From contig JAAFIG010000001.1 of assembly GCA_013298595.1 (NCBI GenBank), forward strand, positions 1-64,000: a stretch of DNA of 64,000 nucleotides, given 5' to 3'. The DNA is from Deinococcales bacterium. GTDB taxonomy: Bacteria; Deinococcota; Deinococci; Deinococcales; JAAFIG01. The stretch's first letter is position 1; each line of letters opens with the position of its first letter. The position numbers and the translations under genes were made by a program. Below are positions 59,107 through 61,421 of this stretch, piece by piece. The notes beneath the pieces are model-generated. The model ran no database searches, was not told the origin of the DNA, and saw nothing but the letters and a program-made list of their open reading frames with translations.

Positions 59107-59871
59107 CTATTGTGCTGTCATACCACCATCAGCAGTAATGATCGAACCCGTGATAAACGAAGCTTCATCGCTGGCAAGAAACAATGCCAAATGCGCGATT
59201 TCTCGAGGTTCGCCTGGGCGACCAATCGGCTGAAAAACATCAATACTATCGTAGACTTTTTGCAAACCACCCAACATCTCGGCATGAGCATAATTGATCG
59301 GGGTATCCACCCAACCCGGACAAATACAATTACAACGAATCCCCCGTTTGGCATAATCCAAGGCAATGCCCTTGGTCAGCATCACCACCGCGCCTTTAGA
59401 AGCGCTATACACCGTTAAAAACGGCTCAGACACCAAACCATTGACACTCGAGATATTGACAATACTACCGCCGCCTTGCTCGAGCATATGCGGCAATACC
59501 GCTCGAGACGCATACATGGCACCTTTGACATTGACATTCAAAGTGCGATCAATCACTTCATCAGATACTTCGTGAAAAACCCCCGGCAGATTGACCCCAG
59601 CATTATTACAAAGCACATCGACCCGACCCCACAAGGTTACGCACCTCGAAACCAACGCCTTAACTTGAGTGGCACTGGCAATATCAGCCACAAAGCTTTC
59701 GGCAATAAAACCAAGTTGCTGAATCTCGAGCACCGTTGTCTGCACTGCCGCTTCGTTGATATCCACACACAATACTCGAGCATTCTCTTCGGCAAACCGC
59801 AAAGCAATTGCTTTGCCGATACCAGAACCTGTGCCTGTGACAATACAAACCTTGCCATCTAATCTGCCCAT
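59107..59871 (-). CDS. Short-chain dehydrogenase/reductase
   Basis: 254 residues from ATG 59871, preceded by AAGGAG; the longer frame from 59937 is rejected. TGTGSGIG (12-19) binds the cofactor; Asp37 in LCVDINEA suggests NAD rather than NADP; NNAG at 89-92; SSVNG at 141-145; Tyr155-x3-Lys159 (YSASKG) is catalytic. The sequence is typical of classical SDRs acting on secondary alcohols such as sugars or beta-hydroxy acids. It is convergent with the response regulator, one base between the stops. Confidence 0.94.
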   Translation of the reverse strand: MGRLDGKVCIVTGTGSGIGKAIALRFAEENARVLCVDINEAAVQTTVLEIQQLGFIAESFVADIASATQVKALVSRCVTLWGRVDVLCNNAGVNLPGVFHEVSDEVIDRTLNVNVKGAMYASRAVLPHMLEQGGGSIVNISSVNGLVSEPFLTVYSASKGAVVMLTKGIALDYAKRGIRCNCICPGWVDTPINYAHAEMLGGLQKVYDSIDVFQPIGRPGEPREIAHLALFLASDEASFITGSIITADGGMTAQ

Positions 59872-59987
59872 AAAACTCCTTGATTTGCTTTTAACCACAA
59901 ATATACTCCGAGCCTGAAGTGAAAAGTATGGCATCATCCGCTGAAAAGCTTTGACAAATTGTCATCCTGATTCCCAAACACTTGTTC

Positions 59988-60017
59988 TTGACGAGTCTCG
60001 AGGTTGCCGCTTATACT
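59988..60017 (+). promoter_or_regulatory. Promoter of the aspS leader
   Basis: TTGACG (59988-59993), 18 bases, TATACT (60012-60017), a good sigma-A promoter. The start would fall near 60024, giving a leader of about 117 bases before aspS and putting a short peptide ATG (60028) at the very 5' end. Confidence 0.75.
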
Positions 60018-60027
60018 CCACGAGCTT

Positions 60028-60069
60028 ATGAAATGCTTTTTTAACAATTCTGCCGACGACGATAATTAG
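60028..60069 (+). CDS. Predicted aspS leader peptide with Asp and Asn codons
   Basis: Thirteen codons and a TAG: MKCFFNNSADDDN. The codons GAC GAC GAT AAT at 60055-60066 give Asp-Asp-Asp-Asn and two further Asn codons (AAC AAT) lie earlier. The start codon lies a few bases from the predicted transcription start, so it would be leaderless. The Asp codons form the left arm of the first hairpin of the leader. A ribosome waiting for Asp-tRNA would cover this arm and let the antiterminator form. Too short for family comparison; the case rests on position, codons and RNA fold. Confidence 0.65.
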   Translation: MKCFFNNSADDDN

Positions 60070-60126
60070 TCGTCGGGGCTTTCGTTGTTTTTTAACGCCC
60101 CGCTCGAGACTCGAGTGGGGATTTTT
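60053..60126 (+). promoter_or_regulatory. Attenuator of aspS: three mutually exclusive stems and a terminator
   Basis: Stem 1:2 is CCGACGAC (60053-60060) with GTCGTCGG (60069-60076). Stem 2:3 is CGGGGC (60074-60079) with GCCCCG (60097-60102). Stem 3:4 is CCCCGCTCGAG (60098-60108) with CTCGAGTGGGG (60110-60120), 10 Watson-Crick pairs and one G-U with almost no loop as written, so the inner pairs must open; it is followed by TTTTT (60122-60126). Stems 1:2 and 3:4 can coexist; 2:3 excludes both. Ribosome stalling on the Asp codons would free arm 2, form 2:3 and prevent the terminator, so aspS is read when charged tRNA is scarce. Confidence 0.65.
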
Positions 60127-60140
60127 CTTTAAGGGGTTGT

Positions 60141-61421
60141 ATGTTGCGGACATTAACAAATGAATTACCAAATTGCATTGGACAAGCTGTCAAACTCGAG
60201 GGTTTTGTGCATTTTCGTCGAGATCTGGGTGGGGTGCAGTTTTTGGTCTTGCGTGATCGCACAGGAACAGCCCAATGTGTGCTTGGTAAAGGCGTGCATA
60301 TTCCTTTGCTCGAGTCGAGTGTACGGGTGCTTGGAACTGTTGTAGCAAATGCCAGAGCACCCCAAGGTTTAGAAGTGCAAGTGCAGAGTCTCGAGATGAT
60401 TAGTGTGGCGGTAGAACCTGCTCCTGTCGAGGTTTCTAAGGAAGAATGGAAAGCCAACCCCGAAACGTTGCTGGATTATCGGTATGTCAGTTTGCGTGGT
60501 TTAAAAGAACGGGCTGTGCTAAAAATTCAGGCGGTGCTAATTCAAGGTTTCCGTGAAGCGTTAATTGCCCAAGGGTTTACCGAGATTTTTACGCCAAAAA
60601 TTGTCAGCGCTGGTGCCGAAGGTGGTAGTAGCTTATTTGAAGTGCAGTATTTCGAGCAGAAAGCCTTTTTAGCCCAAAGCCCACAAGTCTATAAGCAGAT
60701 TATGGTTGGGGTCTACGAACGTGTTTTTGAAACCGCCTGTGTTTACCGCGCCGAGGAACACGCCACCAGTCGGCATTTAAACGAGTACATGAGTTTAGAT
60801 CTCGAGATGGGTTTTATTGAATCCGAAGAAGATGTTATGGATATGGAAAATTTGGTTCTCAAATACATGCTCGAGAAAGTTGCGACGGAATGCAAAACCG
60901 AACTTACCTTGTGTGGTGTTCCAGCCCCAACTGTTCCCGATAAAATTCCACGTATCCCACTTGCTGAAGCAAGGGCTTTATGTATCGAAAAGTATGGTTA
61001 CACCAATGGCGGCAAAGACCTCGACCCTGAAGGCGAAAGAATTATCAGTCGGCATTTCCTCGAGCATTTCGGTTCAGATTTTGTGTTTGTCACAAAGTAT
61101 CCGCGCAGTGCCCGACCTTTTTATGCTTACCCAAATATTGAAGATAACACCACCAAGAGTTTTGATTTGTTATTCCGTGGTATCGAAATTACCAGTGGTG
61201 GTCAACGCGTGCACGATTACCAAATGCTGCTCGAGAACATGGCATACTGCAATGTTGCCTCGGATGGATTTGGCGCATACCTCGAGGTCTTTAAGCACGG
61301 TATGCCGCCGCACGGTGGACTGGCAATCGGTGCGGAGCGTTTAACGGCTAAAATTCTCGAGATTAGCAATGTGCGTTATGCTCGGGCTTTCCCTCGTGAC
61401 CGTAATCGTTTGACACCGTAA
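60141..61421 (+). CDS. aspS: Aspartyl-tRNA synthetase, archaeal-type (AspRS2), probably non-discriminating
   Basis: 426 residues, the short AspRS2 form found in Deinococcus and Thermus beside the long bacterial enzyme; it lacks the bacterial insertion domain. The OB-fold anticodon domain is at the N-terminus (GQAVKLEGFVHFRRDLGGVQFLVLRDRTGTAQCV). Class II motifs: FTEIFTPKIVSAGAEGGSSLF, motif 2 ERVFETACVYRAEEHATSRHLNEY, and motif 3 GMPPHGGLAIGAERLT. AspRS2 of Thermus and Deinococcus also charges tRNA-Asn, which GatCAB then amidates. AAGGGG lies before the ATG. Expression is predicted to be controlled by the leader upstream. Confidence 0.95.
   Translation: MLRTLTNELPNCIGQAVKLEGFVHFRRDLGGVQFLVLRDRTGTAQCVLGKGVHIPLLESSVRVLGTVVANARAPQGLEVQVQSLEMISVAVEPAPVEVSKEEWKANPETLLDYRYVSLRGLKERAVLKIQAVLIQGFREALIAQGFTEIFTPKIVSAGAEGGSSLFEVQYFEQKAFLAQSPQVYKQIMVGVYERVFETACVYRAEEHATSRHLNEYMSLDLEMGFIESEEDVMDMENLVLKYMLEKVATECKTELTLCGVPAPTVPDKIPRIPLAEARALCIEKYGYTNGGKDLDPEGERIISRHFLEHFGSDFVFVTKYPRSARPFYAYPNIEDNTTKSFDLLFRGIEITSGGQRVHDYQMLLENMAYCNVASDGFGAYLEVFKHGMPPHGGLAIGAERLTAKILEISNVRYARAFPRDRNRLTP

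Follow-up and report, generated by a model that had tools for sequence, protein, structure and literature searches.

The closest described counterparts of the leader analysed here are the ribosome-mediated attenuators of Proteobacteria and Actinobacteria (trp, his, thr, ilv, leu and pheST/pheM, as well as mycobacterial ilvB1), which share with it a short open reading frame containing cognate codons, an antiterminator that is hidden once a ribosome stands at the stop codon, and an intrinsic terminator before the structural gene. One of their targets, pheST, is itself an attenuated aminoacyl-tRNA synthetase gene and in this respect resembles aspS2, the gene concerned here. The protecting or pausing hairpin between regions 1 and 2 (1:2) is not universal among known attenuators. 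The trpS and leuS genes of Streptomyces are further synthetase genes targeted by attenuation (PMC1262725). According to a survey from 2010, leader peptides had been shown only in Proteobacteria and Actinobacteria, and the same survey reported one in Firmicutes (PMC2965389). The mycobacterial polycysteine attenuators (Canestrari et al. 2020) are similar in having, upstream of a related gene, a leaderless short frame in which the sensed codon forms a run; in these cys leaders no terminator hairpin was found to be conserved (PMC1262725), whereas a terminator/antiterminator pair is conserved before aspS2. In Clostridium acetobutylicum, the same AspRS2/GatCAB pathway is under a 5' leader of the T-box type that senses tRNA charging (Saad et al. 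2012, 2013), and the title of the 2013 paper announces a two-codon sensor, as in the aspS2 leader. The T-box RNA binds tRNA directly and is unrelated in sequence, whereas a peptide would be translated from the aspS2 leader.

Unlike the attenuators of Proteobacteria and Actinobacteria, the aspS2 leader belongs to the phylum Deinococcota, carries Asp and Asn codons, precedes the gene for an archaeal-type AspRS2 and is predicted to be leaderless; in addition, most of its lineages are without the 1:2 pause hairpin of the trp type, and one family (f5) has the antiterminator strand in the last codons of the frame. Our search of the open-access literature, with subscription papers outside its range, found neither a description of an attenuator with Asp/Asn codons, for aspS2 or in Deinococcota, nor a paper on a leader-peptide attenuator of amino acid genes in Thermus, for which older work on trp or leu leader peptides may exist. 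This agrees with an earlier note on this DNA, whose author knew of no such aspS leader in the phylum. Measured against the open-access literature, ribosome-mediated attenuation as such is already known, and the new elements are the Asp/Asn codons, the aspS2 target and the phylum.

In the window, i.e., the whole stretch of 64,000 nucleotides that was analysed, all parts of the leader follow each other on the plus strand, from the promoter via the frame, three competing stems and a T-run to aspS2:

59107-59877, minus strand: SDR oxidoreductase gene, divergent neighbour upstream of aspS2
59988-60017, plus strand: promoter TTGACG, 18 nt, TATACT (10 of 12 matches)
60028-60069, plus strand: predicted leaderless leader-peptide frame MKCFFNNSADDDN with stop codon, 13 codons, ATG at most about 10 bases after the promoter
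60043-60048 and 60064-60066, plus strand: Asn codons of the leader frame
60055-60063, plus strand: Asp codons of the leader frame
60053-60076, plus strand: hairpin 1:2, arms 60053-60060 and 60069-60076, −15.4 kcal/mol
60074-60079, plus strand: 5' strand of the antiterminator (region 2), CGGGGC, directly after the leader stop codon
60097-60102, plus strand: 3' strand of the antiterminator (region 3), GCCCCG, overlapping the 5' arm of the terminator
60098-60127, plus strand: intrinsic terminator 3:4, CCCCGCTCGA gac TCGAGTGGGG, followed by the T-run ATTTTTC
60131-60136, plus strand: probable Shine-Dalgarno site of aspS2, AAGGGG (from the sequence)
60141-61421, plus strand: aspS2, archaeal-type non-discriminating aspartyl-tRNA synthetase, 426 aa (NCBIfam models)

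The promoter, the 13-codon frame (ATG AAA TGC TTT TTT AAC AAT TCT GCC GAC GAC GAT AAT TAG) and the 14 nt separating the T-run from the aspS2 ATG at 60141 were located exactly as the earlier note had described them, and the T-run provides the U-tract of an intrinsic terminator. Folding of the leader recovered all three stems named there: besides hairpin 1:2, these are the pairing 2:3 (60074-60079 with 60097-60102; −12.0 kcal/mol for the piece folded) and the terminator 3:4 with arms at 60098-60107 and 60111-60120 (−18.5 kcal/mol). The whole leader folds better than its dinucleotide shuffles (z = −4.4), none of 200 being as good. The Shine-Dalgarno site of aspS2 lies outside the terminator hairpin. 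Because the SDR oxidoreductase gene is divergent, the terminator can act solely on the transcript from the promoter at 59988-60017.

The product of aspS2 scores above the cut-offs of two NCBIfam models for aspartate--tRNA(Asn) ligases, NF003483 (545 bits, cut-off 353) and TIGR00458 (384 bits, cut-off 368), and belongs with the non-discriminating enzymes, which bears out the assignment to the AspRS2 type in the earlier note. The genome from which the window derives also encodes AsnRS and GatB as well as a 248-aa piece of a bacterial-type AspRS1 (best match PRK00476, below the full-length cut-off). No convincing AsnB was found in it, the sole match to PF00733 covering about 60 positions (E 8e-5), and the same holds for most of the genomes tested. 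Thermus thermophilus and Deinococcus radiodurans possess the same enzyme set, and their second AspRS and GatCAB make asparagine on tRNA-Asn (PMC4206432). Because of this publication and the lack of a convincing AsnB in most tested genomes, AspRS2 with GatCAB is likely to be the asparagine route here, and aspS2 probably has a double role, as a synthetase gene and as a gene of asparagine biosynthesis. One member of the window's family (G002) yielded no AspRS2 above 34% identity, the best match being AsnRS, and shows stronger AsnB-like matches (E 2e-34); this pattern is consistent with a replacement of the tRNA-dependent asparagine route.

The regions upstream of aspS2 were collected via the protein from 90 Deinococcota genomes; searches at the levels of order, class and phylum returned the same 111 genomes, among which the genus Deinococcus was not identified. 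The designations Thermus-like and Meiothermus-like are group labels inferred here from, among other things, sequence and group size. A leader was scored if a −35/−10 pair was followed after 3-14 nt by a start codon opening a frame of 4-40 codons that closes ahead of aspS2. This rule was positive in 87 of the 90 regions, representing 27 genera and five families, compared with 5 of 90 reverse complements and 3-8 of 90 dinucleotide shuffles as controls. The three regions without a detected leader comprise two on truncated contigs, one with DDDNRGLGA-stop still visible (G109) and one without a recognisable leader (G075), and a third on an intact contig with no leader upstream of aspS2 (G007). Examples of the peptides are MKFIFDNFSDDDS, MLRADNNL, MLRTDDNS, MRLPQGNDA, MRPRLLNNG, MRGLLNNDR and MTHLAFSDDNSGSGRLGA, and the leader stop codons precede the aspS2 match by 61-203 nt. 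In this comparison, the check proposed in the earlier note, the frame, the Asp/Asn run and the pairs 2:3 and 3:4 proved to be kept in 27 genera, an outcome that speaks strongly for the note's interpretation. A search with a Meiothermus-type core pattern, which is too strict for a survey, yielded five matches, four of them within aspS2 leaders (G033, G037, G040, G041); the remaining one (G028) precedes the aspS2 of its genome by about 90 bases. In a plasmid collection, no Deinococcota aspS2 was present among the 20 matches listed.

The start codon lies 7-11 nt past the −10 box in all 87 leaders. With a transcription start assumed 6-7 nt after the −10 box, promoter geometry predicts a 5' UTR of about 0-5 nt (start about 4-5 nt ahead of the ATG in the window) and consequently no room for a Shine-Dalgarno site ahead of the leader ATG. 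The leader transcripts are therefore predicted to be leaderless, a type that may account for up to about 60% of the genes in Deinococcus deserti (PMC9031893).

Adjacent Asp/Asn codons occur in the leader frame of 78 of the 87 leaders and in neither of the other two frames (0 and 0), with a maximum of 10 in 200 shuffles, and Asp/Asn codons make up 24% of the leader frame versus 1.1% and 1.7% of the two others. As in known attenuators, the short frame is enriched in codons of the amino acids handled downstream. Synonymous codons are used in a mixed manner (GAC 84, GAT 33, AAC 59, AAT 79), so it is the amino acid that selection maintains. Together with the conservation in 87 of 90 regions and the in-frame run, this mixed use is strong evidence, at the level of sequence, for translation of the frame and for the importance of its Asp/Asn residues. 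The two residues differ in constancy, with Asn in 86 and Asp in 66 of the 87 leaders, while 21 leaders, mostly Thermus-like and f3, are free of Asp and contain Asn only. The earlier proposal that both Asp and Asn codons are read fits these sequences, with the refinement that Asn is the more constant of the two. The first codon of the run is Asp in 41 of 45 leaders of the f1, f5 and Meiothermus-like groups and Asn in the Thermus-like and f3 leaders; judged from these codons, the product that the leader reads seems to have been exchanged between lineages.

In the relatives, a G-run occupies the place equivalent to strand 2 of the window and pairs with the 5' arm of the terminator. How far this G-run lies from the codon that opens the Asp/Asn run is lineage-specific and nearly fixed, mostly between 11 and 24 nt: the distance is 11 nt in 19 of 22 Thermus-like leaders, 12-14 nt in the Meiothermus-like group, 13 nt in 9 of 10 f3 leaders and 24 nt in 17 of 23 f5 leaders, and the values over most members are 11, 12-14, 13, 17-20 or 24 nt. 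Nearly always, it is about equal to or above the reach of a ribosome past its decoding site (about 10-12 nt). By this geometry, the G-run is covered by a ribosome at the stop codon and exposed by one stalled on the Asp/Asn run. The antiterminator strand is found either directly past the stop codon (f1, f3, f4) or inside the last leader codons, which mostly read Leu/Pro-Gly-Ala-stop (f5). When the RNA between the ribosome edge and the far side of strand 3 was folded with a ribosome front of 10 nt, the mean energies of the 87 leaders were −17.0 kcal/mol for a ribosome on the opening codon of the run, −12.2 kcal/mol on its last codon and −2.9 kcal/mol at the stop codon; between opening codon and stop, each of the 87 leaders showed a gap of 3 kcal/mol or more. 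A longer free RNA always folds more, so that this gap is not a proof by itself. With the same front, stalling in the window gave −15.1, −13.5 and −11.9 kcal/mol at the three Asp codons, −4.2 kcal/mol at the terminal Asn and −2.3 kcal/mol at the stop codon. At the terminal Asn, most of the G-run would still be covered and strand 2 would not be exposed. In this model, the three Asp codons (60055-60063) are likely the best-placed stall sites of the window.

The competing pairing CGGGGC/GCCCCG (2:3) described in the earlier note is present in the window and covaries across relatives. Pairing of strand 2 is better with the strand 3 of its own leader than with strands 3 from other genera (0 of 5000 permutations; 27 genera), and the same advantage was seen inside f5 (7 of 5000 permutations; 28 genomes); within f3 or f4, whose strands show hardly any variation, it did not reach significance. 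In the f5 antiterminator, 182 of 189 cells are standard pairs, and two-sided changes occur in three of the seven pairs. In two genomes, strands 2, 3 and 4 have changed together, to ATTGGGG/CCCCAAG/CTTGGGG (G073) and to CTTCGGG/CCCGAAG/CTTCGGG (G089), as expected of one strand with two alternative pairings. Shuffled spacers paired about equally well with strand 3; this control does not discriminate because shuffling retains the G-runs, and the support for 2:3 rests on position and covariation, as given by the permutations of cognate and non-cognate strands and the pair counts. The antiterminator and the terminator are mutually exclusive at the levels of both sequence and folding. When the full RNA is folded to equilibrium, 3:4 prevails in nearly all genomes, and the switch therefore requires 2:3 to form first. 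Hairpin 1:2, in which the earlier note had the Asp codons forming one arm, is present in the window but was seen in the window's family only: no equivalent turned up in the other families, and most lineages have the switch between 2:3 and 3:4 alone. The terminators end in a T-run of at least four T in 61 of 87 leaders; our script accepted no T-run in 16 Thermus-like hairpins and three others. Because of the T-run missing in these 16, plain intrinsic termination is doubtful for Thermus-like hairpins, which may stop the polymerase by a different route or have some other action. The Thermus-like leaders of G044-G070 contain a conserved, very strong hairpin with about seven consecutive G-C pairs, mostly without a U-tract.

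On the basis of the parts, of the way they are conserved, are spaced and covary, and of the codons chosen, we infer translation, stalling and read-through in the cell as follows. Transcription would start a few bases ahead of the leader ATG; a ribosome would load at the 5' end of the transcript and trail the RNA polymerase. With plentiful Asp-tRNA-Asp, and in many lineages also Asn-tRNA-Asn, this ribosome would reach the stop codon and cover strand 2, leaving strand 3 free to form the 3:4 terminator, and transcription would end before aspS2. With scarce charged tRNA, it would stall within the Asp/Asn run, in most cases 11-24 nt ahead of strand 2, which would permit 2:3 pairing, block the terminator and allow aspS2 to be made. 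In the window, stem 1:2 would set termination as the default if the leader is not translated. Because AspRS2 charges Asp onto both tRNA-Asp and tRNA-Asn, and GatCAB turns Asp-tRNA-Asn into Asn-tRNA-Asn, the loop would match the supply of AspRS2 to both charged tRNAs it feeds. We consider it highly probable, judging from the sequences, that aspS2 is under such a leaderless, ribosome-mediated transcription attenuation sensing the charging of Asp- and Asn-tRNA.

The conserved frame might instead affect translation, with stalling or termination altering access to the aspS2 ribosome-binding site or re-initiation and the hairpin serving as a structural spacer. The mostly missing T-runs of the Thermus-like hairpins would fit this explanation, as would the mycobacterial cysteine leaderless sORFs, to which control of operon expression is ascribed, in one paper by translation attenuation (PMC13236596). 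Nevertheless, we regard it as unlikely, since the leader stop codons, 61-203 nt before the aspS2 match, are beyond ordinary re-initiation, the window hairpin excludes the Shine-Dalgarno site and most lineages have a proper T-run. It is very unlikely that a T-box or another riboswitch-type RNA binds the tRNA or amino acid directly while the frame is incidental: even though the same pathway is under T-boxes in Firmicutes (Saad et al. 2012, 2013, cited in PMC4206432), the leader falls far short of T-box length, the constraint falls on the codons of one frame with third positions free, and Rfam, including the T-box covariance model, gave no match in the window or 12 relatives. Practically no weight remains for a terminator that merely insulates aspS2 from upstream transcription next to a chance frame. 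Simple terminators are indeed common, about one per kb being expected by chance with our scanner, but the upstream gene in the window is divergent, and the retention of promoter, frame and Asp/Asn run in 27 genera refutes this reading.

A narrower question is which charged tRNA is sensed. The leader may respond chiefly to Asn-tRNA-Asn and thereby to asparagine supply, with the Asp codons secondary or sensing a general block of AspRS2. The greater constancy of Asn, the 21 Asn-only leaders and the likely role of AspRS2 and GatCAB as asparagine route (reported for T. thermophilus and D. radiodurans, PMC4206432) in tested genomes mostly without convincing AsnB speak for this possibility, which we take seriously but tend to doubt, as Asp is first and best placed in the 41 of 45 runs of the f1, f5 and Meiothermus-like groups. 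Under the preferred reading, attenuation by the charging of both tRNAs, attenuation would be conserved over a thermophile-rich phylum, would operate without a Shine-Dalgarno site and would act on a gene whose product feeds two tRNAs, offering a testable answer to how Deinococcota adjust the indirect asparagine route. The leaders form a natural series (mainly Asn only, or Asp and Asn, mostly at 11 to 24 nt spacing) which allows one to measure the distance needed between a stalled ribosome and the antiterminator, and testing is practical because Thermus is a genetic and structural model.

The genome of the window was also scanned for a promoter-ATG layout like that of the aspS2 leader, which yielded two leaders ahead of biosynthetic genes and three further candidates:

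G000:C34:114829 (loci L143/L148), minus strand: leader MKNAPIIVVVVALSKGVAA with stop codon, Ile/Val codons, before ilvB (acetolactate synthase large subunit, TIGR00118)
G000:C49:15917 (loci L144/L149), minus strand: leader MKSVVSLFLALNPSRVAA with stop codon, Leu/Val codons, before leuA (2-isopropylmalate synthase, TIGR00973)
G000:C35:20475 (L131/L151), plus strand: candidate leaderless uORF MNDAQKKPNLGHSS with stop codon and terminator, before a PhzF-family gene
G000:C11:522 (L141/L150): candidate leaderless uORF MLLTARA with stop codon and terminator, before an aminotransferase-like gene
G000:C23:116179 (L125): candidate leaderless uORF MVNALSPFTRFA with stop codon and terminator, before a further gene

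The ilvB and leuA leaders share with that of aspS2 a similar promoter, its spacing to the ATG, cognate codons, an antiterminator strand where the frame ends and a terminator followed by a T-run; they differ in their Ile/Val and Leu/Val codons and in preceding biosynthetic genes instead of a synthetase gene. Because their amino acids fit the genes, they serve as an internal positive control for the design, and they suggest a general leaderless attenuation system. No conserved Asp/Asn leader was found upstream of asnS, aspS1 or lysS in the window's family, and no leader peptide was evident by eye upstream of gatB in G000. Two asnS candidates of G000, MNNSD and a 22-codon frame, were discarded as unconserved, being absent in G001-G003. 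We lean slightly towards a wider reading, in which a leaderless two-amino-acid attenuator extends over the phylum, with the Asp/Asn stall codon swapped among lineages, as part of a general amino-acid control system. If true, one leader peptide would read the charging of both tRNA-Asp and tRNA-Asn by one non-discriminating synthetase, and the aspS2 leader would be one of many leaderless attenuators in Deinococcota, among them those of ilvB and leuA.

As an observation on the window itself, the palindrome CTCGAG is present in 379 copies within the 64 kb, compared with about 13 expected from base composition and 49 for the next palindrome. Per kb, the window's family has about 7.4 copies, Meiothermus-like loci have 4.7 and Thermus-like loci 0.56, and this iteration resembles that of HIP1, the highly iterated palindrome of cyanobacteria.
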